Assembly (NCBI RefSeq): GCF_029240175.1
Contig: NZ_JARBTM010000007.1
Location: forward strand, 1 to 64,000
Reading direction: 5' to 3'
Length of the DNA stretch: 64,000 nucleotides
Origin: Anaerosolibacter sp.
Lineage (GTDB): Bacteria; Bacillota; Clostridia; Peptostreptococcales; Thermotaleaceae
Shown: positions 34,286 to 63,905 of the stretch, one piece after another
Layout: the number at the start of each line of letters is the position of its first letter
Position numbering within the stretch: the stretch's first letter is position 1
Position numbers and translations under genes: made by a program
The notes under the pieces: model-generated
Told to the model about the DNA's origin: nothing
The model's database searches: none
The model's input: the letters and a program-made list of their open reading frames with translations, nothing else

Positions 34286-34834
34286 ATAAAGGCTGATAGC
34301 AAATGCTATCAGCCTGGGAGTTCAGTATATCAAGTGGCAGCATATTGAGTAAATTTTGCGGCTTAGGTCTAGTAGGCTTTCCCAAATAGATACTGGTTTG
34401 TCGCCAAATCAGCGGTTTCCCTTCAAATCTATTTTTACCTTGTTGCCAGAGATAAGACTAGATTACCACTTAGTCCGCACTGTAATCCCCAATATGCTTC
34501 TAAAGGAACAGTCTAGGAGTTTTCCTCGACAGTCAAACTATTTCTTAGCCTCTTTTGCAGAAAAGGTTTCGAATAGCAATAACATTATACTTATTGGCCG
34601 ATAAGCATAATGCCTGTTACCTATTATCCGCCAAATCCCACTCAAGGCAGGCTACGCTGCATGTAGCACACAACCAAAATGCATTGGAACCACTATGCAG
34701 GTTTATCCAAAGACCTGACCATCGGTCATCTCTTTGGTCTCCACGGTAAGAGGGTCATCGCCCACATGCCATTGTGGATCGCCCCCATCACCTTACTCCC
34801 AGCACCGACCCCCGACTGGGCGTCAGCAGTTAAT
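34286..34834 (-). ncRNA. ole: OLE RNA (ornate, large, extremophilic)
   Basis: About 550 bases between yuiD and oapA hold no ORF on the sense strand, yet the region is GC-richer than its surroundings and full of short complementary blocks. Minus-strand segments include CAGTCGGGGGTCGGTGCTGG near the 5' end and GACCGATGGTCAGGTCTTTG further in. It ends in a strong 11-base hairpin. The call rests on position (ispA upstream, oapA then dxs downstream, as in Bacillus halodurans), size (usual about 600) and visible structure. Ends are approximate and no covariance search was possible. OLE forms a membrane ribonucleoprotein linked to Mg and energy stress. Confidence 0.88.
34291..34314 (-). terminator. 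3' hairpin of the OLE RNA
   Basis: GGCTGATAGCA pairs perfectly with TGCTATCAGCC over 11 bases with a two-base loop, followed by TTTATAG on the minus strand. It may be the last OLE stem, a processing site or a partial terminator before oapA. Confidence 0.65.
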
Positions 34835-35278
34835 TCAAATAAGCATATTCGCTATCACAATTCCCAAGAGAGCGCCAGCGAAAACTTCAACAGGTGTATG
34901 ACCGATTAACTCTTTTAATCGCTGTTCACCAATGGGCTTGTGTTTATGACGATCCTCAATCATTTTGTTCAAAATAATGGCTTGTTTGCCAACTGCTCTT
35001 CTTACGCCCGAAGCATCATACATGATGATAAGCGAAAAAGAGAGTGCAATAGCATAGGCAACGGAGTCCCAGCCACTTTTAATGCCTACTGCTGTAGATA
35101 TTCCCATGACGAGAGATGAGTGGGAGCTAGGCATACCACCAGAACCAACAAACCGGTAAAGATTTAATCTCTTATCCTTTATCAAGCTATGGATAACTTT
35201 TAACGCCTGAGCGATAAACCAAGCAATGAGTCCAACGATAAAAACATCATTTTTCATGATTAGTTCGAAAAAGTGCAC
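34835..35278 (-). CDS. yuiD: Divergent PAP2 family protein (YuiD/DUF212)
   Basis: This 147-residue membrane protein has the DUF212 signatures AQALKVIHSLI, SGGMPSSHSSLVMGISTAVG, MYDASGVRRAVGKQA and IGHTPVEVFAGALLG. The SGGMPSSHS and GHTPxEVxAG blocks recall the phosphate-binding motifs of PAP2 lipid phosphatases; the real substrate is unknown. AAAGGAGGG is six bases before a GTG start. It lies between ispA and the OLE RNA, a plausible link to undecaprenyl or other isoprenoid phosphate recycling. Confidence 0.92.
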   Translation of the reverse strand: MHFFELIMKNDVFIVGLIAWFIAQALKVIHSLIKDKRLNLYRFVGSGGMPSSHSSLVMGISTAVGIKSGWDSVAYAIALSFSLIIMYDASGVRRAVGKQAIILNKMIEDRHKHKPIGEQRLKELIGHTPVEVFAGALLGIVIANMLI

Positions 35279-47880: not shown

Positions 47881-48942
47881 TTATAACTCTATGAGTTCCT
47901 TTGGTGACTTGGACAAGGTCTTACAACCGTCTTCAGTAACGACTACAAGATCTTCGATTCGTACACCGCCAAACCCGGGCAAGTATATACCTGGTTCATC
48001 GGTAACAATCATTCCCGGCTTCAATGTATCATGGCCTAATGGAGATAATCTCGGAGATTCATGGACCTCCAAACCAACACCATGACCTAAACCATGACCA
48101 AAATAGTCACCATATCCATTTTCGCTGATAATATCTCTTGCAATCTTATCTACTTCGACCCCTGTCATGCCAGGTTTTATGGCTTCTAATGCCTTTTCTT
48201 GAGCCTCCAAAACAATAGAATATAACTTCTTTTGCTTTTCGCTGGCTTTTCCTACTACGATTGTTCTCGTCATGTCAGAGCAATACCCTTCATAAATACA
48301 TCCAAAATCCAAGGTTACAAAGTCACCTGTCTCGATGATTTTATCTGAAGCAACCCCATGGGGTAAGGATGAACGAATACCAGATGCAACGATGCTGTCA
48401 AAGGATAACCCACTGGCTCCTCTTTTCTTCATGAAATTTTCCAGCTCCAAAGCAACTTCATTTTCTTTCATACCTGCTTTCATATATGTAAGGATATACA
48501 CAAAGGCCTGATCTGCAATTTGGGCAGCTTTTTCGATGATGGATATTTCTTCATCATCTTTGATCTTTCTAAGGTTACCCATGGCACCTTCCAAAGGAAC
48601 CATCTTTGTTTGCCCCAGCTTGTCAGAGAACTCCTTATACTGGGCAAAGGTAACAAAATCATCTTCGAAGGCCATGGTATTTAAATTGAATGTGTTCAAA
48701 ATCATATGTAACGGATTCTGGTTTGTATGTTCAACAACTTTAAAGCCGTGGCACTGCTTAGCAGCCTGCTCCATATAACGAAAATCAGTGATAAAATAAG
48801 CGTCATTTAAGGTAATTAACACATACCCAGAGCTGCCAGTAAAGCCACTCAAGTATCTTCTATTTTCAGGTTTGTATATGATGGCTCCATCAATACTTTT
48901 TTCACGCAACAGCTCTCTAAAACGACCAAGCCTTGCAATCAT
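47881..48942 (-). CDS. pepP: Xaa-Pro aminopeptidase / proline dipeptidase (M24 family)
   Basis: An N-terminal creatinase-like domain (RLGRFRELLREKSIDGAIIYKPENRRYLSGFTGSSGYVLI) is followed by the pita-bread peptidase domain. Metal ligands are in TLDFGCIYEGYCSDMTRTI (two Asp), GHGLGHGVGLEVHESPRLS (His), VTDEPGIYLPGFGGVRIEDL (two Glu). It cleaves peptides at proline. GGTGGGG precedes the ATG. In clostridia and bacilli it is usually just upstream of efp, as here; proline peptide turnover and EF-P are only linked by position. Confidence 0.94.
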   Translation of the reverse strand: MIARLGRFRELLREKSIDGAIIYKPENRRYLSGFTGSSGYVLITLNDAYFITDFRYMEQAAKQCHGFKVVEHTNQNPLHMILNTFNLNTMAFEDDFVTFAQYKEFSDKLGQTKMVPLEGAMGNLRKIKDDEEISIIEKAAQIADQAFVYILTYMKAGMKENEVALELENFMKKRGASGLSFDSIVASGIRSSLPHGVASDKIIETGDFVTLDFGCIYEGYCSDMTRTIVVGKASEKQKKLYSIVLEAQEKALEAIKPGMTGVEVDKIARDIISENGYGDYFGHGLGHGVGLEVHESPRLSPLGHDTLKPGMIVTDEPGIYLPGFGGVRIEDLVVVTEDGCKTLSKSPKELIEL

Positions 48943-49111
48943 TGCAGATACCCCCCACCAACATGATGTTTATAAGTTTCCATAAATGCCAAACCATACC
49001 TATTCCCAATCCTTTAATATGATAACATAATTTTATATATTTGGATAGAATTTTTCATGTTTCTTACAATATTATACCCAATATTTACAACTTCTTTACA
49101 ATATACGAGAT

Positions 49112-49375
49112 TTATTTATGCCTTGGGTTCTTGGAAACGATGGTAATAGCATCAATCAATGCTTTCATAACATCTGTTTCAAACTGAATATTCATTTCAT
49201 TGACCCTTGAATAAAGCTCACCCTTCTCCGACACCACATAGTGAGGTTTCAAATGATTTAGTGCGATGGCTCTAATGTCATCTAGACACTGCGGACACTG
49301 ACAAACATTTGGAAACACCTTCAACATCGATGGTAATACATGATCCACAACAATCTCCATATAGTTCTTAAGCAT
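49112..49375 (-). CDS. comFB: ComFB family protein
   Basis: The 87-residue protein matches late competence protein ComFB: ENYM-like start (LKNYMEIVVDHVLPSML), CQCPQCLDDIRAIALNHLKPHYVVSEKGELYSRV and a C-terminal helix. The CxCxxC and Asp/Ala/Leu pattern is characteristic. Members of this family were recently shown in cyanobacteria to bind c-di-GMP or c-di-AMP and to influence pili and motility. Here it follows a pilin gene cluster, beside a c-di-GMP gene. AAGGAGG precedes the ATG. Confidence 0.85.
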   Translation of the reverse strand: MLKNYMEIVVDHVLPSMLKVFPNVCQCPQCLDDIRAIALNHLKPHYVVSEKGELYSRVNEMNIQFETDVMKALIDAITIVSKNPRHK

Positions 49376-49502
49376 TGAATATCCTCCTTCATCCTATAAA
49401 AGACTTATTAACATATAACTATAAGGTTAATCTTCCATACAAAAATGAAAATTCCTCTACAACATAGAAGAATTTTCGTATAAATACGACACGCTATAGG
49501 TA

Positions 49503-50045
49503 TTATTTATCTTCTGCTGACTTAATATTTCGGAAGAATGCACTATTTTCAATGGTTAGTGTCTTACCTCTTCTTTGACAAGTGATAATGACACGGATAC
49601 CTTTACATTCCTTATATTCGCCATCGATGGGAATGATCACAAAATCTTTAATATAGTTGGCGTATTGCACGTTAGCATCATTGCCATAACCATACCAAAG
49701 GCTGGCACTGGCCCTTTTATGCTCAAATACAAGCTTTTTATATTTAGGATGGATTTCATCCTCTTTAGGGGAATTTCTAAAAACAATCTTTTTTACTTTA
49801 TGCTGGGATTCATCATGGAAGCTTACTTGCTGAATCCCTTGACTATACATGACCTTATTCAAAAATTCGTTCACAGCGATTTGGGCTTGATACTGGAGCT
49901 CTAACTGGTCGTCCATCTTCTCTCCATACCTTTGATAAGCTTGAAAAAATGAAAAGACGCTGGTCATGATGATGCATAAAATGGCGAGGGCAATCAACAG
50001 CTCCATATAGGTGAAGCCTTTTCGATTAAGGTCCAAATAGCTCAT
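49503..50045 (-). CDS. Prepilin-type protein (PulG/PilW-like)
   Basis: The N-terminus DLNRKGFTYMELLIALAILCIIMTSVFSFF is a type III signal with the cleavage site G/FTYMEL and the +5 Glu. The rest (about 150 residues) is a soluble minor-pilin head, unassigned, ending in TCQRRGKTLTIENSAFF. It overlaps the upstream prepilin gene by 20 bases. The ribosome site is poor, so the start may be a few codons downstream. It is the last of four prepilin genes (51447 to 49503). Confidence 0.82.
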   Translation of the reverse strand: MSYLDLNRKGFTYMELLIALAILCIIMTSVFSFFQAYQRYGEKMDDQLELQYQAQIAVNEFLNKVMYSQGIQQVSFHDESQHKVKKIVFRNSPKEDEIHPKYKKLVFEHKRASASLWYGYGNDANVQYANYIKDFVIIPIDGEYKECKGIRVIITCQRRGKTLTIENSAFFRNIKSAEDK

Positions 50046-50469
50046 CTAACAACAATACTCTGCCGCTGGCAGGAACAATGGTAATTTGGTAGAATCGCCG
50101 TGAATCTTTGTTATAGATCGTGATGGTATCACCTCCATGGGTAGGTACGCCTTGGTAACTGAATCGGACTTCTTCATTCCCATAAAGAAGCTCAAACGGG
50201 TCGGGGATCTCTACACTCTTTAGCTCCTGGGTGCCGTCTAAGACCTTATAATACTTTTTACTAAGCAGAATGCTGTACTGTCCACCCAGTGTCATTTTCG
50301 ACATGCGCACCTCCCGTATGTCCGTACATAGATGTCGGGCATAGGATTTCATGGTAAAGCTTGATTTCTTGATTGTGGGCATCGCCAGGGACGAAAGGAT
50401 AACCATCAATCCAATAACAGCCACCACCTCAATCAGGGTGAAACCTTTCTGCCTGTGGTTTTTCTTCAT
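50026..50469 (-). CDS. Prepilin-type protein (GspH/FimT-like)
   Basis: The prepilin signal HRQKGFTLIEVVAVIGLMVILSSLAMPTI has the G/FTLIE site. The body (KSYARHLCTDIREVRMSKMTLGGQYSILLSKKYYKVLDG) has the pattern of GspH/FimT minor pseudopilins. AGGTG is six bases before the ATG at 50469; the GTG at 50478 in the track is less likely. Placed between the PilX-like and PulG-like genes. Confidence 0.83.
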   Translation of the reverse strand: MKKNHRQKGFTLIEVVAVIGLMVILSSLAMPTIKKSSFTMKSYARHLCTDIREVRMSKMTLGGQYSILLSKKYYKVLDGTQELKSVEIPDPFELLYGNEEVRFSYQGVPTHGGDTITIYNKDSRRFYQITIVPASGRVLLLDELFGP

Positions 50470-50485
50470 CTCGTTCACCTACCTG

Positions 50486-51058
50486 CTATTCAGAAAGATA
50501 TCGCATATGGAGGATATCTTCTATGTCCGTTGGTTCTAGCGGATATAAGGAAGCATTGGGCACCGATATTTCAAAGATTGCCTTTGGCATATGGGAGACA
50601 TTTCTATATTTATAAACAGACTGGATTGTTATGGAGAATTTGTCGTTCCCATTTACAAATGGTTCAACCTCTAAAACCTTCAGCGAGGGCCTTTCATTGC
50701 TTAGGGTCGGATCTAATATCGTACACGAATAACTGCTTAAAGACGAGACCAATTTTTCATTAAGATAGGTGGTATAGGATGTTTTGAACTGATGATGTCC
50801 TCCGCCTTCTTTTTCTCGTTCTAGCTGCCCAAATGCTGCCGCATGGTCAATCTCCTTGGCGATTAATCCGTATGCTTCCTCCAAGCCTGCTTCGGCTAAA
50901 TAAAAGGCAGTTTTGCTATAAAGTTCAATTTGTTTCATTCTATAATTCATCATGCTGACAGAGAATATGGCAGTGCCTAAGGCTCCGACAATGGCCAAAA
51001 TGATAATGACCAATATATAGGCAGCTCCCCTCTTTTCCAACCTAGCGTTTCTCACCAT
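50486..51058 (-). CDS. PilX-like minor pilin assembly protein
   Basis: An N-terminal span RGAAYILVIIILAIVGALGTAIFSVSMMNYRMKQIELYSKTAFYLAEAGLEEAY is typical of the PilX N-terminal domain, which lacks the Glu-5 of other pilins and keeps LAEAGLE. The remaining 130 residues are an unassigned head. AAGGAG stands six bases before ATG at 51058 (track start TTG at 51061). Twelve bases separate it from the next prepilin gene. Confidence 0.8.
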   Translation of the reverse strand: MVRNARLEKRGAAYILVIIILAIVGALGTAIFSVSMMNYRMKQIELYSKTAFYLAEAGLEEAYGLIAKEIDHAAAFGQLEREKEGGGHHQFKTSYTTYLNEKLVSSLSSYSCTILDPTLSNERPSLKVLEVEPFVNGNDKFSITIQSVYKYRNVSHMPKAIFEISVPNASLYPLEPTDIEDILHMRYLSE

Positions 51059-51069
51059 CAACAGCTCCT

Positions 51070-51447
51070 TTAATTTCGTCTCCTAAGACCAACCATTCGT
51101 GACAGTTCATGGGTGTCATCAATATCCTTCACAATCAATTGAATCTTTTCTAGTCTGGCATCATTGTTGGCCCTTTCTAAGGGTTCAATGGATACTTCGA
51201 CCCGCAGCTGAAGCGCTTCTATGTCATAAATATGTAATCCGGTACCTACATAGAGATCATATTTGCTTCTCTCCATATATTGCTGGCTTAGATGAGAATA
51301 GATCATCAGCTGCTTCGCCTCTTGGAGTAGTTTTACTGTAGACAGAAACATGGAGGATATGGGAACAAACAAAATTCCCATGATACACAATGCGATGATA
51401 ACTTCTATGAGGGTCATACCCTTTTCTTGATCCATCTTCTTTTCCAT
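51070..51447 (-). CDS. Prepilin-type protein (PilV-like)
   Basis: DQEKGMTLIEVIIALCIMGILFVPISSMF has the prepilin site G/MTLIE. The head of about 85 residues contains LSQQYMERSKYDLYVG and a short C-terminal RRN tail. AAGGGG precedes the ATG at 51447. It is the first gene of the four-gene minor pilin set that ends at 49503. Confidence 0.82.
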   Translation of the reverse strand: MEKKMDQEKGMTLIEVIIALCIMGILFVPISSMFLSTVKLLQEAKQLMIYSHLSQQYMERSKYDLYVGTGLHIYDIEALQLRVEVSIEPLERANNDARLEKIQLIVKDIDDTHELSRMVGLRRRN

Positions 51448-51654
51448 CAACCCAACCCCTTCGTGATTTGAACGGATCTAAATATTCAAACTATTCGATA
51501 AAAATCTACACAATCCTTCAAAAACTGGAAAATAAAAACAGTTTCTATGAAATAATTCTTTAGCTGTTAAAGAAAAAAGAGGAAAAAACTGTCATATGCC
51601 GAATTATATTTAGAATGGAAAACTTTTTTTTGATATTTTGAGGAGGAAAAATAT

Positions 51655-53889
51655 ATGCAACCTACTCTATTTACCAAAACAAATATTTTATTCTCCAATG
51701 GTGCTAAGGAAATATCCACGGATGACCATGGTAAAAATAGTATTGAAAAACCCTCCAATGAACTCCATGTCTTGGCTGAGTTTACTGTAGAGAATACCAA
51801 CGATATGATTTTTTGGATTGATTATACAGGAAAGATTTTTTTCGCTAACAACGGAGCCTGTAAGACTTTAGGCTATCACAAAACAGACTTTTTAAAGATG
51901 ATGGTTTTTGATTTAGACCCCACCTACTCTAGAGCATTGTGGGAAAATCATTGGACAGAAATCACCCGACAAAACACCATGACCTTTGAGTCCTCCTTAA
52001 GGACCCGGATGGATACCTATGTCCCTGTAGAAATTACTTTTGACTACATGAACTATTACGGCAAGGAATATATTTGTGCCTTTGTTCGGGATCTTACCTA
52101 TCGCAAGAAAGCCGATGAGAAGCTTAATAATCTACACAAGCTTCTAATGAATGTGGTATCTACCATACCTGGAGAGTTGTCGGTCATCGACCGCTATTAT
52201 AATATTGTCTACAGCAACTGGCCGCAATTTGATACGGGGATGGATATTAAAATCATACAACAAGATAAGTGTTTTAGAAGCTGTAAATATATCAAGGAAA
52301 ATTATACCTACTGTATGGCAAAGACAGTATTCGAAACCCAGGCGCCTCTCATGGGCAAGCAGATCAAGCTAAGGAATGGCACCTGGGCAGAGCTCAACTG
52401 TATTCCCCTCTATAATAATGAAGGAAAGATCGAAATGGTGGTGGAATACGTCTCTGATATCACGGCCCATAAAAATGCCGAAGAAGTCATTCGCGAAAGT
52501 GAAGAGCGCTGGCAGCTGGCTCTCCGAGGAAACAATGATGGGATTTGGGACTGGAATATCAAAACCAATGAAACCTTCTTTTCTGCCCGTTGGAAGGAAA
52601 TGCTCGGATATGGAGAGGATGAAATCGATCACACCTTTCACAGCTATACCCAGTTAATTCATCCCCATGATATCGGTCGTGTAATGAAGGCCATAAATGA
52701 TCATATGAATAAAAAGATTCCTTTTTATAGCTTAGAGCATCGGATGATCTGCAAGGATGGTTCCCATAAATGGATACATGCTCGCGCACAGGCTATATGG
52801 GATGAAGATGGAAATGCCATTCGTATGGCTGGCTCCCACACCGATATTACAGAGCGTAAAAAAGCTGAAGATGAGGTTCATTATCTTAGTTTCCATGACA
52901 AGTTAACGGGACTCTATAATCGTGCCTATTTTGAAGAGGAGCTCAATCGATTAAATACGGAGAGACATTTACCCCTTTCTGTTATTATCGGAGATGTTAA
53001 TGGACTTAAACTCACCAACGATGTTTTTGGACATACAGTGGGAGACCGTCTTTTAACACGTATTGGAGATATCTTGAAAAATTCCTGCCGAAAAAGTGAC
53101 ATTATCTCCCGCTGGGGCGGAGATGAATATGCCATCATCCTGCCAAAAACCGATGAAAGAGCCAGTGCGGAAATCTGCGCCAGGATCAAGGCAGCATGTC
53201 TGCAGGATGATGGAGAACTGATTAAACCCAGTATTTCATTGGGTAGTGCAACCAAGCATGATCAATCCCAGGAAATCATCCAAATACTTAAAGAGGCAGA
53301 GGACCGCATGTACCAGCATAAGCTTTTGGAAACCCAGAGCAACCAGAGCGTAATCATATCCTCTTTAGAAAAAACGCTTTTCGAAAGAAGCCATGAAACC
53401 GAGGAACATGCCCAGCGAATGAGAAAAACCTGCTATGATCTTGGCGTTCAGGTGGGCCTGTCTGAAAAGGAACAGGATGATTTGAGCCTCTGCTGTCTTC
53501 TCCATGACATAGGAAAGATTGCCATTGCCGATAGTATTCTGATGAAGGCCGACAAGCTTACCTTTGAGGAATGGGAAACCATGAAAAAGCACCCTGAAAT
53601 CGGCTATCGTATTGCAGAGTCTTCTAAGAAGCTTTCTCATATCTCTGAGTACATCCTGTACCATCATGAGCGTTGGGATGGCAAGGGCTACCCTAAAGGT
53701 CTAAGGGAATTTGAGATTCCAAAGCTTTCGAGGATACTCACCATCGTAGATGCCTATGATGTGATGACAAACGCCAGGGTCTATAAAGAACCTATGAGCA
53801 AAAAAGAAGCCCTCAAAGAAATCAGCCGCTGCGCAGGCACCCAGTTTGATCCTTTTCTTTCTAAAGTGTTCATAAAGATGATGAAATAA
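51655..53889 (+). CDS. PAS-PAS-PAS-GGDEF-HD-GYP c-di-GMP turnover protein
   Basis: Three PAS domains (about residues 40-150, 160-280, 285-405) are followed by GGDEF (about 410-560) and HD-GYP (575-744). The active GGDEF motif is GGDEY, with an RKSD inhibitory I-site five residues before it. The HD-GYP domain is complete: HDIGK, HPEIG, HHERWDGKGYP. So it might make and degrade c-di-GMP. The second PAS holds CFRSCKYIKENYTYC, a three-cysteine set that could bind a cofactor. No membrane span is seen. It is the only long plus-strand gene in the pilus region; GAGGAGG precedes the ATG. Confidence 0.93.
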   Translation: MQPTLFTKTNILFSNGAKEISTDDHGKNSIEKPSNELHVLAEFTVENTNDMIFWIDYTGKIFFANNGACKTLGYHKTDFLKMMVFDLDPTYSRALWENHWTEITRQNTMTFESSLRTRMDTYVPVEITFDYMNYYGKEYICAFVRDLTYRKKADEKLNNLHKLLMNVVSTIPGELSVIDRYYNIVYSNWPQFDTGMDIKIIQQDKCFRSCKYIKENYTYCMAKTVFETQAPLMGKQIKLRNGTWAELNCIPLYNNEGKIEMVVEYVSDITAHKNAEEVIRESEERWQLALRGNNDGIWDWNIKTNETFFSARWKEMLGYGEDEIDHTFHSYTQLIHPHDIGRVMKAINDHMNKKIPFYSLEHRMICKDGSHKWIHARAQAIWDEDGNAIRMAGSHTDITERKKAEDEVHYLSFHDKLTGLYNRAYFEEELNRLNTERHLPLSVIIGDVNGLKLTNDVFGHTVGDRLLTRIGDILKNSCRKSDIISRWGGDEYAIILPKTDERASAEICARIKAACLQDDGELIKPSISLGSATKHDQSQEIIQILKEAEDRMYQHKLLETQSNQSVIISSLEKTLFERSHETEEHAQRMRKTCYDLGVQVGLSEKEQDDLSLCCLLHDIGKIAIADSILMKADKLTFEEWETMKKHPEIGYRIAESSKKLSHISEYILYHHERWDGKGYPKGLREFEIPKLSRILTIVDAYDVMTNARVYKEPMSKKEALKEISRCAGTQFDPFLSKVFIKMMK

Positions 53890-53897
53890 TAAAGATA

Positions 53898-53931
53898 AAA
53901 AAATCGAGGATGTCGTTATCCTCGATTTTTT
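53898..53931. terminator. Bidirectional terminator between the GGDEF/HD-GYP gene and pilO-SLH
   Basis: A perfect 14-base stem (AAAAAATCGAGGAT and complement) with a six-base loop and A/T runs on both sides. Confidence 0.9.
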
Positions 53932-53934
53932 ATA

Positions 53935-55119
53935 TTATTTGAAGTGGTACAGTAGATAAACTGCTTCTCCTTTGGAAAGGTATCCCGTTTTGTTGGTAAG
54001 ACCTACAGACTCAAACCCTTTTTCAGTCTTTGCCTTCTCTCCAACCTGATTCCAGTTAAAACCAGGATCTGTCTTTACTTGGCGCATGATATATTCCACT
54101 TCCTCATAGGTTATGGGTTCCCTTGGACGTAGGGTGTTATCCGTATATCCTGCCACATATCCTCCGATAAAGCCTTTGAAAATAGCCTTGGCAATAGAGC
54201 TTTCATAGCTGCCCAAGGTACTATAATCACCAAACTTGGTCAAATCCACCTTGCCTTCTGGCACAGGCCACTGATAGACCCTATCCAGCAAAATAATGAA
54301 ATCTCCCCTTGTGATGGCTTCATCCGGCTTAAACTGATTTTCCTGATTGCCCTGGATATACCTCTTCTCACCAAAATCGTTAAGCTCTGCTTCTGCCCAA
54401 TGACCAACAATATCCGTAAACTTCACATATGTATCTGTTTTCAGCTTTGATGGATCTCCGCCGATGAAAAGATAATTAATTTTCAAGCCATTTGATGGGC
54501 TCATGGAAGAAAAAGGATTTTCTTTATAAAAATCTTCGTCAATGTACCATCGGAACAAATCATCCTTTAAATCGGGACTGTTTTTCATTCTATAGAAACC
54601 TATTTCGAAGCTGCCGCTTAAACGGCCACCTTCAGTTCTAGCCATATTGATATTCTTCACGATAATCTTCTTTTGGAATTTCCACATAGATCTTAATAGG
54701 TTCATCAGCGATGGATAATCCCCTTCGTAAGAAAGGGTGGCGTTCATGGATTCTAATTCTGTCTCACCAAGCTTTTCTATGGTGAATGGAGTAAAGGATA
54801 TTACCGATACATTAAGATTTGGATCCTGAAGCATTTCGTTAAAAAGTAAAATAAATTCTTCTTGCTCTGTAGTGGTAAAGAAGTTATTGGTAATCAGTTT
54901 GATCTTTTCATTCATGGCTGTGATGTTCTCATCCAGCTTTTTCTCGGTGGCAGCAGCATTTTCCACCTTCGTCATTTCTGCTTTGTACTGCTCTCGTTGC
55001 TGTTTTAAGCTATCTAACTCCACCAGCTGCGGCGTAATCAGAAACTGATAATATACCCACAGGAAAAGCACTGCACCTAGAACCGAAACCAATACGCGCT
55101 CTCTTCTCGTCAGCTTCAT
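53935..55119 (-). CDS. PilO-like protein fused to S-layer homology domains
   Basis: The N-terminus has a span (VLVSVLGAVLFLWVYYQFLI), a coiled coil (LKQQREQYKAEMTKVENAAATEKKLDENITAMNEKI) and a PilO-like ferredoxin-fold part (EEFILLFNEMLQDPNLNVSVISFTPF, YPSLMNLLRSMWKFQKKIIVKNINM). From about residue 225 there are SLH repeats: VKFTDIVGHWAEAELNDFGEKRYIQGN, FGDYSTLGSYESSIAKAIFKGFIGGY and a last partial one. SLH domains bind secondary cell-wall polymer, so this pilus assembly protein may fix the machine to the wall. It follows pilN by one base. AAGGATG precedes the ATG. Confidence 0.88.
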   Translation of the reverse strand: MKLTRRERVLVSVLGAVLFLWVYYQFLITPQLVELDSLKQQREQYKAEMTKVENAAATEKKLDENITAMNEKIKLITNNFFTTTEQEEFILLFNEMLQDPNLNVSVISFTPFTIEKLGETELESMNATLSYEGDYPSLMNLLRSMWKFQKKIIVKNINMARTEGGRLSGSFEIGFYRMKNSPDLKDDLFRWYIDEDFYKENPFSSMSPSNGLKINYLFIGGDPSKLKTDTYVKFTDIVGHWAEAELNDFGEKRYIQGNQENQFKPDEAITRGDFIILLDRVYQWPVPEGKVDLTKFGDYSTLGSYESSIAKAIFKGFIGGYVAGYTDNTLRPREPITYEEVEYIMRQVKTDPGFNWNQVGEKAKTEKGFESVGLTNKTGYLSKGEAVYLLYHFK

Positions 55120-55120
55120 C

Positions 55121-55669
55121 TTAATTCACATCCTTTAACGCGAATTGAATGGAAAAATTGTATAGACCTTCATTTAAAGAAACGGAAGGAATAAATAAAT
55201 CTTTAAATGCCTTTGTCTCTCGGAGATTGTACTCAATTTCTGCAATGGCTGATTTATCCCTGGCGGTACCATTGATGGTAATTTGTTCAGGGCTTATGTT
55301 AAAGGATATAAATTCTAAGTCTGGAGGAATCGCATCTACGATAAGCTGGACCAATTCATCGCTTAATACATCAATTTTTCGAAGCGCTAGCTCGCTCTTT
55401 TGCACCATGGGTAATACTGCTGTGATTTCTTCAAGCTTACTTTGTTTTTCATTGACCCTTGCCATTTTTTCTTTGGTTTCAGGAGACTCCAGTATCGTCT
55501 GCATTTGGGCAATATCTTTTTTCATATTATGGGCATAAACCAGGTTGAACACAGGAAAAGCTAGAACAGCCACAACGCACACTACTGCCATGCCATAGTA
55601 TAAGTTTTGCCTTTTTTCCTTTCCTTGATGCTGCTGTATATAGGGTTCAAAAAAGTTAAAATCTTTCAC
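55121..55669 (-). CDS. pilN: PilN-like type IV pilus assembly protein
   Basis: A short cytoplasmic N-terminus (KDFNFFEPYIQQHQ), one span (NLYYGMAVVCVVAVLAFPVFNLVYA), a coiled coil and a ferredoxin-like domain (LVQLIVDAIPPDLEFISFNISPEQITINGTARDKSAIAEIEYNLRET) match PilN. In other bacteria the first residues of PilN bind PilM (consensus INLLP). That motif is replaced by FNFFEP here. GTG start with GGGGG before it. It lies in pilM-pilN-pilO order. Confidence 0.87.
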   Translation of the reverse strand: MKDFNFFEPYIQQHQGKEKRQNLYYGMAVVCVVAVLAFPVFNLVYAHNMKKDIAQMQTILESPETKEKMARVNEKQSKLEEITAVLPMVQKSELALRKIDVLSDELVQLIVDAIPPDLEFISFNISPEQITINGTARDKSAIAEIEYNLRETKAFKDLFIPSVSLNEGLYNFSIQFALKDVN

Positions 55670-55683
55670 TGTTGCTTCCCCCC

Positions 55684-56763
55684 TTATCTTCTGACCATAG
55701 CACCCAGGGCGTTAGCATAAAGCCCAAGGTCTATATTGCCCTTGATATTGTCTGTATTTACGGAACTGATGGTTTTGATTTTTTTCACTGGGATGTTGAA
55801 GGCCTCCTCCATGTACCCAGCGATACCATTTAGATTTGCACTTCCCCCATATAGATAAATGACATCCAGTCGATTGCCTGTATTTCTAGTCATATGGTAT
55901 TTGAAAATCCGCTCGATTTCATCGATCCATGTATCCACACTGGACTTGATGATATTTAGAAATCTGGATTCATCGTTGTATTCTCCAAAGGACTTCGAAA
56001 TATCACTACATTCCACTTTTTTGATTCTCGCCTCTTCTAAAGAAAAATCCAGGAAGTTTGCAAGGTTATGGTCAATATCCTTACCACCTATATTTAAGAG
56101 ACGATTAAACTTAAAATTTCCGTTATCAAAGATGGACACATTGATTTGGTTATGGCCCAAATCAACAATAGCAGAAGTCTTACCAGCTACCGTGTCTCCA
56201 TGGTTCACCTCTGATTGTGGATGAATCAACTTGGTGATTGCATTGGAATGGACATCTAGGGCGATGGGCTTTAGATGTAAGGTTTCTAAGAGGTTTAGGT
56301 AACTTTCGGCGATACCCCTTGGCAAGGCAGCCACCAGTAAATTAACGTGCTTGGTGTCCCCTTCCATAAACTCATCCAACTGCTTATATTGTATGATGTA
56401 TTGATCTAATTCAATCGGAAGGAATTGCTGAATCTCATAGCCCACCATCTCTTTCAACTCGTGAGGCTTTGCAGAAGGCAGTACAACCTCCCGGGTGATA
56501 ATGGTGCTGCTTTCCAGGGTGCATATGGCAGCTCGGGTACGGACCTTATTCATATGCAAAGTTTCTTCTAGAATATCCTTCACCTTTTGTCCGTCGTAAA
56601 ATTGTCCATCTTTGTATAGATCCTCAGGCATGGGGATGATAAAAGCATTGTCCAAGACAAGCTTATCCTTGTCCAGCTTTCCCACCACTGCCTTAATGCT
56701 GTGGGCACCGATATCCAAGGACAGTACATCAGTGTATTTATGCGATATGGCTCTTTTCTTCAA
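55684..56763 (-). CDS. pilM: PilM-like actin-fold pilus assembly ATPase
   Basis: LSLDIGAHSIKAVVGKLD is the actin/FtsA phosphate-1 motif; SAIVDLGHNQINVSIF is phosphate-2, and VIYLYGGSANLNGIAGYMEEAF the adenosine motif. TREVVLPSAKPHELKEMVGYEIQQFLP is characteristic of PilM. Cytoplasmic ring protein that binds PilN. The start is a TTG after AAAGGGGGAG. It lies between pilD and pilN. Confidence 0.92.
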   Translation of the reverse strand: MKKRAISHKYTDVLSLDIGAHSIKAVVGKLDKDKLVLDNAFIIPMPEDLYKDGQFYDGQKVKDILEETLHMNKVRTRAAICTLESSTIITREVVLPSAKPHELKEMVGYEIQQFLPIELDQYIIQYKQLDEFMEGDTKHVNLLVAALPRGIAESYLNLLETLHLKPIALDVHSNAITKLIHPQSEVNHGDTVAGKTSAIVDLGHNQINVSIFDNGNFKFNRLLNIGGKDIDHNLANFLDFSLEEARIKKVECSDISKSFGEYNDESRFLNIIKSSVDTWIDEIERIFKYHMTRNTGNRLDVIYLYGGSANLNGIAGYMEEAFNIPVKKIKTISSVNTDNIKGNIDLGLYANALGAMVRR

Positions 56764-56785
56764 GTGTGCTCCCCCTTTTAACGTA

Positions 56786-57544
56786 TTACATGAATCTTTG
56801 TAAATACCAAGAAATCATTTCATTTTGAAAACATATGGTGATAAAAGCAGCCATGGCAATAAACGGGCCAAAGGGAATCGCTTCCTTCCTTCCTTTTATT
56901 TTCGCTGCCAAGAGAAACACAGATATTACTGCCCCGATAACAAAGGATAACAAAATGATCAAAAGAATACTTTGGATACCTAACCAAAATCCCAGCATGG
57001 CCATGAGCTTGATATCCCCGCCGCCCATACCTCCATTAGATAATATGGCTATGAGCAGGAATAGACCTCCTCCTATTAGAAACCCACCAGCTCTGCTGAA
57101 TAGCGTTATAGAAGACGCACCTATGTAATATCCATATAAGAGATATATACCACCCAAAATGAATCCGCAAACCACCATTTCATCGGGAATGATTTGATGG
57201 TCAAAATCAATACCTGCGATGGCAATAAGGAGGCTGGCTAGCAAGCTGTAAGCAATAAAATCCATGGTTTGTCCGAATACAATATATAACAAAAGGAAAA
57301 CACAACCTGTGAATAGTTCAAAGAAAGGATAGCGAAAAGAAATCTTGCTGCTGCAGTATCTACATTTGCCTCTATAAAACAAATAGCTAAGCACTGGGAT
57401 TAGGTCGAAGGCTTTAAGAAAGGTACCACATTGAGGGCAGTGAGAAGATGGATATACGATGGACTTATCATTCGGTATCCGATAGATACACACATTTAAG
57501 AAAGAACCAATCAATAACCCGTATATGAATACAAAGATATGCAT
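56786..57544 (-). CDS. pilD: Prepilin peptidase PilD
   Basis: A24 aspartic peptidase with the bifunctional leader: GLLIGSFLNVCIYRIP, the zinc-binding CPQCGTFLK ... RGKCRYCSSKISFRYP, then the catalytic aspartates in IAGIDFDHQIIPDE and GGGDIKLMAMLGFWLG. The protein spans the membrane about seven times. It cleaves prepilin leaders after glycine and N-methylates the new residue. All prepilins of this window are likely substrates. GGGGGG precedes the ATG. Confidence 0.95.
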   Translation of the reverse strand: MHIFVFIYGLLIGSFLNVCIYRIPNDKSIVYPSSHCPQCGTFLKAFDLIPVLSYLFYRGKCRYCSSKISFRYPFFELFTGCVFLLLYIVFGQTMDFIAYSLLASLLIAIAGIDFDHQIIPDEMVVCGFILGGIYLLYGYYIGASSITLFSRAGGFLIGGGLFLLIAILSNGGMGGGDIKLMAMLGFWLGIQSILLIILLSFVIGAVISVFLLAAKIKGRKEAIPFGPFIAMAAFITICFQNEMISWYLQRFM

Positions 57545-57690
57545 CTATATGTCCCCCCTTTTTTATAAAGTTCATGCAGTGAAGAAAATTGGAAACAGCT
57601 TACTTAAAAGCAAAATTTCACTATAAAATTATACCATAAATTAGTAGCCATCACAATCAAATAGGAACAAATACCTATTGACAGCATTAG

Positions 57691-58008
57691 TCAAAATTCT
57701 CCAAAATACACACTTAACCATCTAAAATGTAGTATAAGTACATAGGCCTTGATGCTGGCTAAACCTGTTAACATCATATTCAACCACTTAACCTTTTCAC
57801 TTACTTTATAGAGGAAAACCAATGCAATCGCCACATATGCCAAGACACAAAAAGCCGTTGCTTCCGTTGATAAGCAGATAAAGTAATTCATGATAGGATT
57901 ACCCTCTTGTATAATCCCTAATTGCAACCCGAATAGTGTAAAAGCAATATCAAGCACTGTAAGCAAATATATGATATAGTAAACAAAACGTGACCATTTC
58001 ATAATCAT
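57691..58008 (-). CDS. DUF5658-like small membrane protein
   Basis: The 105-residue protein has four spans: FVYYIIYLLTVLDIAFTLFGLQLGII, NYFICLSTEATAFCVLAYVAIALVFLY, and a terminal pair around WLNMMLTGLASIKAYVLILHF. The sequence LDIAFTLFGLQLGIIQEGNPIMNYFI matches DUF5658. Function unknown. AAGGAG precedes ATG ATT ATG; either Met may start. It is 146 bases upstream of pilD and 360 bases after the pilin gene, so perhaps it is its own unit. Confidence 0.72.
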   Translation of the reverse strand: MIMKWSRFVYYIIYLLTVLDIAFTLFGLQLGIIQEGNPIMNYFICLSTEATAFCVLAYVAIALVFLYKVSEKVKWLNMMLTGLASIKAYVLILHFRWLSVYFGEF

Positions 58009-58368
58009 ACAACTCCTTAATAGACATGTATGCTAATTATAATTATCTGTTGTATGATAGTATTTGTACTTATCGGGTTATGAACTGTGGTATTTACTTC
58101 CAAAGATATTCCGAGATTTAGTGTCTTGCCTAATCAGTGAAATAAGTTATGTCATGAAAGCGAGCGATTATCGTAGTCATACTGAAAATAGCTCCCTAAG
58201 ACTGGCTCATATACTAGGAGGGCTTTAACACTGGAAATCGTCAAGATATTCATTACCGTATTACCAGGTCGGGTGATTTTAATTTATTACCTCTTTACTC
58301 TTACTTTTTGAACATGAAAAAGAGTCAATCAAAATGATTGACTCCCAAATTTAAAGAAAGAGATATTA
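58009..58368. other. 360-base gene-free stretch in the pilus region
   Basis: It holds the terminator of the upstream prepilin gene (58322-58344) and should carry the promoter of the DUF5658 gene. I looked for a c-di-GMP riboswitch, which would make sense here, and found none of its core segments on either strand. Nothing else was recognised. Confidence 0.5.
58322..58344 (-). terminator. Terminator of the first prepilin operon
   Basis: A perfect ten-base stem, GAGTCAATCA and complement, with a three-base loop, 25 bases behind the stop and followed by TTTTTC on the minus strand. Confidence 0.85.
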
Positions 58369-59517
58369 TTACTCAGTTACAGTAACATCGCCTGGACTTC
58401 CATGGTTTGATGGAATATAAACATCAAAAACCTTAGTGATGGTAGCTCCATTTAAACTACCTTGCAATGTAATTGTTCCCGATTTGTGATCGCTACCATG
58501 TCTTGTAACTTCTCCACTTGGAATGGCAATTGCTGCTCCGCTCTCTACTGTTCTAGAGATGAAAGAAAAAGCTATCCCATTAATACTTGCGGGCAGATTT
58601 ATTGTTGGTTTCGCCTGATTGTTTTTATTTCCGGCATTAGAGACACTCAAAACTGCCAAAGTATCAAGTGCATCTTGTATAATTTGCTCATTTGATGGCA
58701 AAAGTATAAACTCAATTGTGTATGTAGCGCTTCTTGTACCATCTGCAGAGGTAACTTGAATCGTTGCTGTACCTGGTAGACTAGCAGCATCTGTTATACT
58801 TGAGACCGTAGCACCATCCTTACCTGTTGCAGTAACTATTGTTGGTGGGATAGTTGTTCCATGAGGTAATGATACGGTATAGTAGGTTATTGAGGAATCA
58901 AATGCTGGGGTTAGCGTACCACTACTTAATGTAAGGTTGCTTAGTTGAGCATTTGCTGGAACGGGTACAGGGGCACTTATTCCTTTTTTATAATATATAC
59001 TTTGGCTGTTTGTTAAAGTTGTTGCTGTCTCGATGTTATTCAACATTACGCTAGAGGCTAAGGTGTACGCATTCCCTTGATTTTTTCCATTGATTGAAAA
59101 ATCAAGAGTATATTTCGAACCTATTTGTACAAGTGAAAACTGTAAATCGGTGGATGGATTCTGTATTATAGCATCTGTTTTATCTATGGTAGTTCCACCA
59201 AAAGGCTTATATTTTAACTTGTTACCACTTACGTATATTTGATTATAATCATTGGGATTAGCTGGTGTTGTAAGCATAATTTCCGTGGCATTTCTTACAT
59301 CTTTTATAATAAAATCAGAGGCTAATCTAAGTGTAGATTGAATGTCAGATTGCGTGACGCCTTTATTAAAAACTTTTGTTCCAAATGATTGAAAGGAGAA
59401 TATTATGCCTAATATGATACTCAATAATCCGATTGTAATAATCAGCTCTATTAGAGTAAAGCCACTTTGTCTATTTCTTTTTCTTTCATTAGCACTACTT
59501 TTGATAGTCAAAATCAC
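58369..59517 (-). CDS. Minor pilin with cadherin-like and atypical Ig-like domains
   Basis: RQSGFTLIELIITIGLLSIILGIIFSF is a prepilin signal (G/FTLIEL). After a pilin head of about 150 residues comes a cadherin-like beta-sandwich (AQLSNLTLSSGTLTPAFDSSITYYTVSLPHG ... ATIQVTSADGTRSATYTIEF, about residues 195-270), and then an atypical bacterial Ig-like domain (INLPASINGIAFSFIS ... GTITLQGSLNGATITKVFDVYI). So at 382 residues it is a long, adhesin-like pilin. GTG at 59517 or TTG at 59511 may start it. It is the last gene of a three-prepilin unit. Confidence 0.85.
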   Translation of the reverse strand: MILTIKSSANERKRNRQSGFTLIELIITIGLLSIILGIIFSFQSFGTKVFNKGVTQSDIQSTLRLASDFIIKDVRNATEIMLTTPANPNDYNQIYVSGNKLKYKPFGGTTIDKTDAIIQNPSTDLQFSLVQIGSKYTLDFSINGKNQGNAYTLASSVMLNNIETATTLTNSQSIYYKKGISAPVPVPANAQLSNLTLSSGTLTPAFDSSITYYTVSLPHGTTIPPTIVTATGKDGATVSSITDAASLPGTATIQVTSADGTRSATYTIEFILLPSNEQIIQDALDTLAVLSVSNAGNKNNQAKPTINLPASINGIAFSFISRTVESGAAIAIPSGEVTRHGSDHKSGTITLQGSLNGATITKVFDVYIPSNHGSPGDVTVTE

Positions 59518-59553
59518 CCGATCCTTTCTAAATTAGTTTGGATGTTGGAATTA

Positions 59554-59904
59554 CTACGGTACAAACGTGGTTACTTTAGATTTCTTAGCATTTATCTCAG
59601 CTTCAAATGAAATCGATTGTCCTGATACCGTCATCCCGGGTGACGGTGGAGATGGCAACTCGATAGTAATGGTAGTAGGACTCGACGTTTCCACAATACT
59701 TGGGGCAGGTGTGCCGCCTGCAATTTTCTGCTCGGCTGCTTGATGCGCTTTAAATCCTGCTCCACTTTTGTGACCTGCATTAACAACCTGGACATACCCA
59801 AATGTAAAGAGATTCAAAAAAGCAATAACCAATATACCTAAAATCGCTACAGACACTATGATCTCAATAAGTGTCATTCCTCTATTTTCTTTTAGTCTAT
59901 TCAT
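59554..59904 (-). CDS. Prepilin-type protein (PilV-like)
   Basis: KENRGMTLIEIIVSVAILGILVIAFLNLF has the prepilin site G/MTLIE. The head of about 85 residues is Pro/Ser-rich (TPAPSIVETSSPTTITIELPSPPSPG). GAAGGT stands nine bases before ATG at 59904. It lies between the PilX-like and the adhesin-like pilin genes. Confidence 0.82.
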   Translation of the reverse strand: MNRLKENRGMTLIEIIVSVAILGILVIAFLNLFTFGYVQVVNAGHKSGAGFKAHQAAEQKIAGGTPAPSIVETSSPTTITIELPSPPSPGMTVSGQSISFEAEINAKKSKVTTFVP

Positions 59905-59927
59905 ATTTATCATACCTTCCAAGAAAA

Positions 59928-61019
59928 TTAATCACCCCATAAATCACGGCTATATCCTTCTGACTGAAAACCAAGATCTTCAGGATATAAGTTCCCTACA
60001 GCAGCTGAAGCTGCAACATCTCCTCCTGATTCTAAAGTTAGGTTTTTTGCTACAATAGCACCTACGCTATCCATATTTGCCTTAATGGTCATATCTGCAC
60101 CTGGTCCATAAATAAATCCCTGAAATTCACTATTACCAGTTTGGAAATCCAATGTACCCGAATTAAAAATATTGAGTATCGTCTTTGCATTGGGGCCAGT
60201 AAATAGGTTTCCTTTAAAATAAATACTATTCGTGTATAGGGATAAGGTACCATTGCCAGTAACGTAAATATTTGCATTGTTTCCAGACAGTGAGTTGAAT
60301 TGAATTTTCATATCTCCTGAAAGATTGATGTAGTAGGTATCACTGCCAAGGTTTACAGCGTCAAATTTACGGTCTGCGTAACCGTCACCACTGTTAATAT
60401 TAAAACCTAAAGGAGGCCAACTCAGCGTTGGGTCAGCTTCTAGCAAAACAGGGTCTGAAGGTTCTGGAAATGTTCTATTTGTTATTTTGGGGGGCTGCAC
60501 ACTTATATTACTCGTATAGCCAGTGATACTAGCGGTAGGAGTCCTTGATACGCTGCCAGTTACCTCACAGTTTGGCTGATCTATGTGCAATGAGTTTGTG
60601 ACGGTTACTGTAGAATCAAAAAAATAGTTTTTTTCTAGTGCAAGGTTAACCTTCTGCTCAACGCCACTGTATTCACCCACACTATGGATAGTCGGTTTAT
60701 ATTTATCTCCTGAAAAACTGATTTTAAAGCGACCATCTGCAAATGTTGTCCATTTATCAACGTTCGTGGTGTTGCTTGAAATCAATGTATCAATTGTACT
60801 TAGGGTATGGGTTGGATCTTCTATCCAAGTTGAAGCAGCTTCCGCACCTGCTCTTGCAATATAATAGGCTTTAAGTCGCTTTTCCTCATGGATCGCAAAA
60901 TTATTCTCTGCAAGACTTACTTGAAGAAGCGCCGCACCAAGAATAGAAAGAACAGCCATAACAATTATGATCAAAACTAATGAGGAACCTTTCTTATTTT
61001 TAAATGCTTTGTTCATCAT
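59928..61019 (-). CDS. PilX-like protein with DUF7305-type beta-solenoid head
   Basis: KKGSSLVLIIIVMAVLSILGAALLQVSLAENNFAIHEEKRLKAYYIARAGAEAAS is a PilX-type N-terminus without the Glu-5. The head of 300 residues has repeats rich in Asn, Gly and Thr (YYINLSGDMKIQFNSLSGNNANIYVTGNGTLSLYTNSIYFKGNL...) that match DUF7305 and look like a right-handed beta-helix. It is the first gene of the unit, with AGGAGGG before the ATG. A TTGCAA-17-TAACAT promoter candidate lies 40-70 bases upstream. Confidence 0.83.
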   Translation of the reverse strand: MMNKAFKNKKGSSLVLIIIVMAVLSILGAALLQVSLAENNFAIHEEKRLKAYYIARAGAEAASTWIEDPTHTLSTIDTLISSNTTNVDKWTTFADGRFKISFSGDKYKPTIHSVGEYSGVEQKVNLALEKNYFFDSTVTVTNSLHIDQPNCEVTGSVSRTPTASITGYTSNISVQPPKITNRTFPEPSDPVLLEADPTLSWPPLGFNINSGDGYADRKFDAVNLGSDTYYINLSGDMKIQFNSLSGNNANIYVTGNGTLSLYTNSIYFKGNLFTGPNAKTILNIFNSGTLDFQTGNSEFQGFIYGPGADMTIKANMDSVGAIVAKNLTLESGGDVAASAAVGNLYPEDLGFQSEGYSRDLWGD

Positions 61020-62254: not shown

Positions 62255-63790
62255 TTAATCACGAAGTGAGCCGACAATAGCAATATTGGTTCTGATCATC
62301 AAAAAATTAATAAACATTCCTGAAAAAGAGGATACCAGCTTGGCTATCCTCTTTAAATTTACTGCTATTGCAGTTAATTTTGCTTGTATGCCCATGCTAC
62401 GCAGACCGTAACCCCTGGCTCGGTCTAATCCATGAAATCTTTTCATTTCCCCATTCTTCCACTCATGACTTGCTCGCTTTTTATACTTGTCTAAAAATCC
62501 TTCCTGCTTGGTAAATTGACTATATTCATAGAACTCAAAAGTATTTGCGGTTATCTCAAGAATTTTTCTTGCTTTGCCTTTATTTAGACACTCGTGGCTC
62601 TTTGGACAGTTTTTGCAGCATTCTTTTTCAAAATAGTAATAATGGCTTACTCTGTCCTTGCTATTACCTTTTTTCTTTTTAATCGTTTTATTTCCTTCAT
62701 CACAAATCCATTGATCTGAGTCCTTGTTGTATGTAAACTTGGAATCATCTAATTTATATACCGATTCACTTACTGGAATATATGCCTCTACAGTCTCTTC
62801 CTTCAATAAATCCAATATTGGCTTTCGAAAATATGCTTTATCACCATATGCTTCCTTTATACTTATTCCACATTCTTTCGTTTTGGTGTAGAGATTTTTA
62901 AATTCAGTTCCATCAACGTAAGCTCCGCCTTGTACAACGACTGCTGTTATCATGCGTTCTTCAGGGCTCATAGCATATTCAACCTTGTATCCAAAGAAAC
63001 TATCGGTTTTAGATTTGTAACCCACTCTTGCATCTTTATCAACGAGAGATCGGATACCTTTTTGTTGTATAAACTTAGGAGAGTCTAATATTTCTTTAGC
63101 GTTTTTAATGGATTGAAGAGTTTTAGGGCAAGTGGCTAAATCAAAATTCTCTTCCATTGTCTCTGTGACCTTTTCTAGATAGTTTTTCATAGTTTCCTTT
63201 GCTAGATTGTGATCCTGTATTTCTTTGTAATTAGGTATTTCTTTAGCTACCTGTTCAGCAGCTACGCTGTTTTCCTCTTCGATGCTTATAAAAATTCTTT
63301 TGGCAAGGTGCTTCATAATTCTCTCTGGTACTTTTTTAATGGTGTTGGCTTCTGTATGGGTAGCATCTATGCTAATACCAGTTCCCTTAATGATACCTCT
63401 ATTAACACATTGTTTTACAATTTCTTGGATGATATCATCCAATGTTGTTTCTTTAAGCCTCTGGGTTCTAAATTTAGCTAGAAGACTTGGGTCTGGAAGT
63501 TTATCCTCTGGATTGATACCGATAAACCACATATATGCTAGGTTTACCTTTGTATCTTCTACTACCTGTACATCTGAAAGATTGTATAAATATTGGAGTA
63601 TTAACAATTTAGCCATCATTTCTGGTTCCTTAGCTGGTCTTCCATAGAACTTACAGTATGAGTTTTCAAGAAGTTTGTTGATGAAATTAAAATCAACAGC
63701 GTTATTTATCAATTTTAATATATGATTTTCTGGAATTCTATCGTATAATATGGAATAGATGCTTAACTGCATATTTTTGTCTTTAAGCAT
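62255..63790 (-). CDS. IS1182 family transposase
   Basis: The 511-residue DDE transposase begins with an N-terminal DUF772-type domain (LIDNAVDF-like, FYGRPAKEPEMMAKLLILQYLYNLSDVQVVEDTKVNLAYMWFIG). The catalytic regions include GTGISIDATHTEANT, VEAYGDK-like AYGDKAYFRKPILD and the late KRFHGLDRARGYGL segment with the Glu-bearing helix nearby; a cysteine knuckle (CCKNCPKSHEC) sits between. The frame is complete. AAGGGGGT stands six bases before the ATG at 63790; the track start at 63835 lies ahead of that site. Confidence 0.92.
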   Translation of the reverse strand: MLKDKNMQLSIYSILYDRIPENHILKLINNAVDFNFINKLLENSYCKFYGRPAKEPEMMAKLLILQYLYNLSDVQVVEDTKVNLAYMWFIGINPEDKLPDPSLLAKFRTQRLKETTLDDIIQEIVKQCVNRGIIKGTGISIDATHTEANTIKKVPERIMKHLAKRIFISIEEENSVAAEQVAKEIPNYKEIQDHNLAKETMKNYLEKVTETMEENFDLATCPKTLQSIKNAKEILDSPKFIQQKGIRSLVDKDARVGYKSKTDSFFGYKVEYAMSPEERMITAVVVQGGAYVDGTEFKNLYTKTKECGISIKEAYGDKAYFRKPILDLLKEETVEAYIPVSESVYKLDDSKFTYNKDSDQWICDEGNKTIKKKKGNSKDRVSHYYYFEKECCKNCPKSHECLNKGKARKILEITANTFEFYEYSQFTKQEGFLDKYKKRASHEWKNGEMKRFHGLDRARGYGLRSMGIQAKLTAIAVNLKRIAKLVSSFSGMFINFLMIRTNIAIVGSLRD

Positions 63791-63905
63791 GGAGAAACCC
63801 CCTTTTCTATGATATTGTCTCGACAACACTATCATATCAAATTAGCGGGTTTTTCTCTATCGTTTATGCTTATTTTAGGCAGGATATTCCAATATTTAGG
63901 ATGTG

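Follow-up and report, generated by a model that had tools for sequence, protein, structure and literature searches.

A PilO protein fused to an S-layer homology module in a clostridial type IVa pilus cluster: a candidate built-in wall anchor

Results

Organization of the pilus cluster

The window, a stretch of 64,000 nucleotides from Anaerosolibacter sp., contains an intact minus-strand open reading frame at 53935-55119 that encodes a pilO-SLH fusion protein of 394 residues and starts 1 bp past the stop codon of pilN. Along the minus strand the order is prepilins, pilD, pilM, pilN and pilO-SLH, with further prepilins past a gene on the opposite strand. The features of this region are as follows.

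49503..51450, minus strand: four minor-prepilin-like genes (49503-50045, 50026-50478, 50486-51061 and 51070-51450), three with an N_methyl Pfam match
51655..53889, plus strand: PAS-GGDEF-HD_5 (HD-GYP type) c-di-GMP gene, convergent with pilO-SLH
53935..55119, minus strand: pilO-SLH fusion gene, 394 aa (open reading frame list, Pfam, AlphaFold model, structure matches)
54556..55119, minus strand: PilO part, residues 1-188 (T2SSM above cut-off, PilO profile below cut-off; 3jc8, 2RJZ, 5UVR)
54430..54555, minus strand: linker, residues 189-230, about 42 residues (low pLDDT in the AlphaFold model)
53938..54429, minus strand: three-repeat SLH module, residues 231-394 (SLH Pfam 46 bits; Sap 3PYW, SpaA-SLH)
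55121..55669, minus strand: pilN (PF05137, 41.5 bits)
55684..56763, minus strand: pilM (PF11104, 135 bits; TIGR01175, 139.8 bits, cut-off 133)
56786..57544, minus strand: pilD prepilin peptidase (PF06750 and PF01478)
58369..61019, minus strand: prepilin-like genes (58369-59517, 59554-59922 and 59928-61019), two with N_methyl/PilX_N Pfam matches
59554-59922, minus strand: prepilin-like gene of the preceding group, assigned by its N-terminus MNRLKENRGMTLIEI

Genes for a pilin, PilC, PilT and PilB lie past the window on the same contig (G000:C16, locus L031) and, together with pilD, pilM and pilN, complete a type IVa set. PilT scored 493.7 bits against TIGR01420 (cut-off 319), and the cluster is that of a retractable type IVa pilus. 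The pilM-pilN-pilO run recognized in a preliminary description of this DNA was thus found again, as pilD-pilM-pilN followed by pilO-SLH, within a complete cluster. A transposase-like open reading frame of 526 aa (62255-63835, minus strand), recognized by visual inspection alone, is located within the pil cluster, with the PilX-like prepilin on one side and the genes for the pilin, PilC, PilT and PilB on the other. Elsewhere in the window, a full-length OLE RNA (RF01071) was detected at 34318-34938 on the minus strand with 403.9 bits.

Of 21 fused loci, 5 have a homologue of the PAS-GGDEF-HD_5 gene beside the fusion, compared with 1 of 59 unfused loci, and PilB of the window's genome carries an MshE-type c-di-GMP-binding motif (74 bits, cut-off 38). 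The pilus and c-di-GMP control seem to be linked in this clade.

Domain structure of the fusion protein

The PilO part begins with a positively charged N-terminus and a membrane-spanning stretch at residues ∼9-29, which lies inside a long helix (residues 5-77) that precedes a ferredoxin-like core (residues 81-181). With the N-terminal sequence MKLTRRER ahead of the hydrophobic stretch, the SLH part would face outwards, although this orientation is inferred. Searches with Pfam gave 46.4 bits for SLH (cut-off 20.8) and 34.3 bits for T2SSM over residues 3-65 (cut-off 27.8). The Pfam PilO profile reached only 13.9 bits over residues 35-178, under its cut-off of 22; among relatives, one protein passes with 24.2 bits, and 11 of 39 match at E values up to 0.1 (best 2.2e-6). 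No LysM domain was found in the window protein by Pfam.

A profile built from the N-terminal parts of 39 relatives had Myxococcus PilO (3jc8) as its best match of solved structure, with an E value of 3.1e-6. The AlphaFold model, computed from an alignment of 64 sequences comprising the window protein and its relatives, had a mean pLDDT of 87.4 and consisted of two confident domains joined by a weak linker at residues ∼190-230. The stalk helix and ferredoxin-like core of the PilO fold are present in this model, and residues 81-179 superposed on Pseudomonas aeruginosa PilO (2RJZ) with a Z score of 11.9 and an rmsd of 2.2 over 95 residues; the Z score with 5UVR was 11.3. The preliminary description had taken the N-terminal two-thirds to look like PilO and had counted the absence of a structural match to PilO as a refutation. 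The identification holds, but the proportion does not: PilO occupies about half of the protein (residues 1-188) and is followed by the linker.

The Pfam result, with T2SSM over and PilO under the cut-off, is what would be expected if the cluster encoded a T2SS-like endopilus and the protein were GspM-like. This is very improbable, given that PilT and PilM (TIGR01175) both exceed their cut-offs, that PilO is the best match of solved structure by sequence, that the model resembles PilO structures (Z scores of 11.3-11.9) more closely than EpsM/PulM (8.1-8.2), and that no secretin was detected in the genome.

The C-terminal part, residues 231-394, forms a pseudo-threefold module of three SLH repeats in the model, the third being too divergent for Pfam yet visible in the predicted structure. 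Residues 232-394 matched Sap (3PYW) with a Z score of 14.8 over 145 aa, and the SLH part matched SpaA-SLH bound to a pyruvylated sugar with a Z score of 14.1. Both the C-terminal SLH repeats and the PilO-SLH architecture put forward for 53935-55119 are therefore real, being supported by Pfam, by the profile of the relatives and by AlphaFold with structure matches.

Conservation of the predicted ligand-binding residues

SpaA builds its main pocket (G2) from Arg43 of SLH1, Gly29 of SLH2 and Trp13 of SLH3 (PMC6081394). The counterparts in the window protein are listed below, with conservation counted over 41 pil-linked SLH modules.

54307..54309, minus strand: Arg271 of SLH1, the TRAE-type Arg (here TRGD), equivalent to SpaA Arg61; R in 38/41, K in 3/41
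54148..54150, minus strand: Gly324 of SLH2, the GIIxG-type Gly (here GYVAG), equivalent to SpaA Gly109; G in 39/41
54052..54054, minus strand: Trp356 of SLH3, equivalent to SpaA Trp151; W in 41/41

The register of the pocket rests on where the motifs and helices lie and on a profile alignment of SLH1 to Sap, without pocket geometry from coordinates. Arg271, Tyr338 and Lys383 each start a core helix in the AlphaFold model, as TRAE motifs do. At the Arg position of SLH2, Tyr is found in 39 of the 41 modules; SpaA has Val instead of Arg at this position, and its G3 groove is non-binding (PMC6081394). The G3 groove of the SLH module here likewise lacks its Arg. The Arg position of SLH3 is R or K in all 41 modules and Lys in the window protein. 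The counterpart of the SpaA G1 groove is partly conserved, with Tyr/Phe for the SLH2 Trp and, in the window protein, Lys for the SLH3 Arg. Because G1 is only partly conserved and G3 is without its Arg, the affinity of the module for the polymer may be modest.

The polymer-binding residues that the preliminary description required of the SLH half are thus kept, and the Arg271/Gly324/Trp356 triad is nearly invariant. Binding of a wall polymer is inferred from sequence conservation, and there are no binding data. Were the module to have lost polymer binding and to serve instead in contacts with other proteins, such as those of the S-layer or a pilin, the weakness of the third repeat in Pfam, the SLH3 Lys in place of Arg and the SLH2 Tyr would be readily understood. 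We regard this as improbable in view of the near-invariance of the main pocket in 41 modules and of the conservation of the SLH half, which exceeded that of the PilO half in all 20 comparisons with the window protein (means of 47% versus 37%).

Cell envelope genes

In the genome to which the window belongs, which is 96.5% complete, neither a secretin nor Omp85 was detected, whereas control genomes were positive. This agrees with the assumption that the cell is Gram-positive and without an outer membrane, and on this ground a diderm cell that uses its SLH module in the manner of OmpM was rejected.

Any SLH protein is expected to require CsaB. The genome encodes this enzyme (G000:C23:38412-39344; 308 bits, cut-off 213). 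Among fusion genomes, csaB was found in 14 of 15 and missed only in a metagenome-assembled genome (MAG) of 75% completeness; the co-occurrence that the preliminary description had asked about was therefore observed. Across 148 relatives, csaB exceeded the cut-off in 44 of 46 genomes with a pil-linked SLH module versus 51 of 102 without one (Fisher p 9e-9), and the two exceptions among the former are MAGs that are 75% and 83% complete. As every SLH protein should need CsaB and the genomes are mutually related, the association is a consistency check only and not specific proof.

Distribution and origin of the fusion

The search for further PilO-SLH fusions in Clostridia that the preliminary description had suggested yielded 20 genomes with proteins of 392-410 aa. 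Nineteen, out of 393 sampled from one clostridial order, belong to four families: f1 (G000, the window's genome, and G002, G007, G011), f2 (G048, G076, G113, G525, G528, G540, G558), f3 (G028, G097, G110) and f5 (G041, G051, G058 with two copies, G066, G074), all with full-length fusions. The twentieth, G1041, is a MAG of another class with 6% contamination; its fusion lies on a 4.6 kb contig and is possibly misbinned. A sample of 391 genomes of the class contained the full-length fusion only in G000 and G028. When a single genome was known, an accident of assembly or annotation could have been invoked; with the same architecture and length in 20 genomes, several of which have few contigs, this explanation is refuted and an assembly artefact is ruled out. 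Within the cluster of a fusion genome, G048, PilM and PilN are joined in one protein of 547 aa (L043:8006-9649); a PilM-PilN fusion has been reported for Clostridioides difficile (PMC6916266).

Two arrangements that the preliminary description had overlooked were seen in other relatives. Within a few genes on the downstream side of pilO, and usually in the very next one, many fusion-free genomes of the order and class encode a secreted protein of 490-700 aa that ends in a pil-type SLH module. Clostridiaceae bacterium LH_M71 (G074) has the fusion, and Alkaliphilus serpentinus (G072) has the separate SLH protein. In some relatives, the C-terminus of PilO is occupied by one or two LysM domains (Pfam above cut-off). 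The sampled loci comprised 21 fusions, 14 PilO-LysM proteins with an SLH neighbour, 21 PilO proteins with an SLH neighbour and no detected LysM, 4 PilO-LysM proteins alone and 20 PilO proteins for which neither LysM nor an SLH neighbour was detected, so that a separate SLH protein lies near pilO in 35 loci and PilO-LysM occurs in 18. LysM and SLH were detected in this tally with local HMMs, and the last class may conceal divergent modules; locus G022 was placed in the SLH-neighbour group by hand. The SLH module is not obligatory, since G001, from the window's own genus, has PilO-LysM and no SLH neighbour. The combination of gene fusion and swapping of wall-binding modules indicates one shared task.

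The separate protein (L047:11733-13496, with about 34 homologues adjoining pilO) folded in prediction into a helical repeat part, a ZU5-like domain (Z score of 10.6 with ankyrin ZU5) and the SLH module; the predicted fold gave no indication of how PilO would be contacted. It apparently represents an undescribed family. A second PilO in the fused-type cluster of G074 (L037:6954-8138) ends in a Pro/Glu-rich linker and an Ig-like domain that, on visual inspection, is similar to the C-terminal end of the window prepilin 58369-59517.

A tree was computed from 76 SLH modules: 56 pil-linked modules, 12 non-pil modules, of which the window's genome supplied nine, and 8 modules of named outside species. 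All 56 pil-linked modules formed one clade (support 100/99), separate from the ordinary SLH modules tested, which rules out that the module was borrowed from one of the genome's own ordinary S-layer proteins. The 21 fused modules formed one nested clade (100/96) that adjoins separate modules of f3 with weaker support (83/90). In the PilO tree, the fusions also clustered (90/91), including one member that has lost its SLH module. Given that both trees group the fusions, a single origin of the fusion, from a pil-specific SLH protein that was formerly separate, is most likely.

The window cluster is nearer to that of G011 (PilT 89%, PilC 79%, PilM 65%, PilO core 63% and flanking pepP 69% identical) than to that of G001 in its pil genes (PilT 67%, PilC 56%, PilM 43% and PilO core 35%), whereas the adjoining pepP is nearer to that of G001 (86%). 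Thus, within the genus, the flanking pepP is 86% identical while the pil genes are only 35-67% identical (window 47881-61019 versus L050 and L032). This pattern fits an exchange of the whole pilus cluster between lineages, anchor type included, at one chromosomal site.

Discussion

In a cell that has no outer membrane, it is an open question what keeps retractable pili, with their strong pull, in place. In diderms, PilP, the secretin PilQ and TsaP carry the load to the wall and the outer membrane. We consider it probable that the gene described here encodes a PilO with a wall anchor of its own, belonging to the retractable type IVa machine of a monoderm clostridium; wall binding and load-bearing are inferred. 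Seated in the cytoplasmic membrane, PilO would hold the platform jointly with PilN and PilM, while its coiled stalk helix and flexible 42-residue linker would reach to the wall zone, where the three SLH repeats may grip a pyruvylated secondary polymer made with CsaB. A PilO ring would then become a ring of anchors with many weak grips in parallel. The Myxococcus entries 3jc8 and 3jc9 contain 24 PilO chains between them, and a 12-fold ring of about 12 copies, as in the Myxococcus model, is inferred. Such a ring could fix and centre the platform beneath the wall and bear load in retraction, as PilP/PilQ/TsaP do in diderms; the substitution for PilP/PilQ that had been proposed earlier remains an inference. 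In relatives, the separate SLH partners and the LysM ends would do the same job.

Wall binding need not imply load, however. The module may instead serve to position the machine, be it at a pole, at the septum or where the wall is thin, or to steer the pilus across the wall; SLH and LysM both serve generally in wall targeting, and translocation across peptidoglycan has been offered as an alternative role for monoderm PilO (PMC6916266). Sequence cannot distinguish placement or steering from load-bearing, and the choice between the two is a matter of inference. As PilT is present, retraction forces must be met somewhere, and we hold a role restricted to placement or steering to be unlikely.

Extending the anchor reading beyond the fusion itself, we lean, with some reserve, towards the view that monoderm type IV pili have a dedicated PilO-centred wall anchor, in which a pil-specific SLH module, fused or on a secreted neighbour and interchangeable with LysM, replaces PilP, the secretin and TsaP. 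If true, a dedicated anchor would explain what the extra part of monoderm PilO is for. The anchor is visible here as a domain with a known ligand and known binding residues, in about twenty genomes, and the separate-protein and LysM versions are natural comparisons for PilO-SLH.

A literature search limited to open-access sources turned up no description of PilO-SLH or of a pil-linked SLH family. The PilO proteins of the diderms P. aeruginosa and Myxococcus xanthus share with the window protein a membrane helix, a long stalk helix, a ferredoxin-like core and a gene position after pilM-pilN, but they are without a wall-binding module, and the link to the wall and outer membrane is made by PilP, PilQ and TsaP. 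OutB of the Dickeya T2SS is a membrane part of a pilus-related machine that is tied to peptidoglycan. Its attachment, in a diderm, is covalent and made by an Lpp-box (PMC12274547) rather than by SLH.

With the SLH anchors of Bacillus anthracis Sap and Paenibacillus alvei SpaA, the window protein shares the three-repeat fold (Z scores of 14-15) and the SpaA G2 triad (PMC6081394). The pil-linked modules differ from these anchors in forming a separate clade, in having Tyr for the SLH2 Arg nearly always and in being carried on a pilus platform protein or on a secreted protein of the pil operon. A C-terminal wall-binding module on PilO has also been described in Litorilinea aerophila and two other archaellated Chloroflexota in 2026 (PMC13319060). 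There, the module is LysM, which binds peptidoglycan and not a pyruvylated polymer, and the gene adjoins an archaellum locus without PilM; PilO-LysM is here found in clostridial pil operons as well.

A further precedent is the enlarged monoderm PilO of Streptococcus sanguinis (PilO/PilH), which similarly combines a PilO-like N-terminus with an extra C-terminal part. Pelicic (2019) raised the possibility that this part is a wall anchor, a suggestion termed “entirely speculative” (PMC6916266). Whereas the extra part of the S. sanguinis protein is of unknown role, that of the window protein is an identifiable SLH module with ligand residues, and wall anchoring by PilO, formerly a speculation in the main review of monoderm pili, becomes a directly testable idea.
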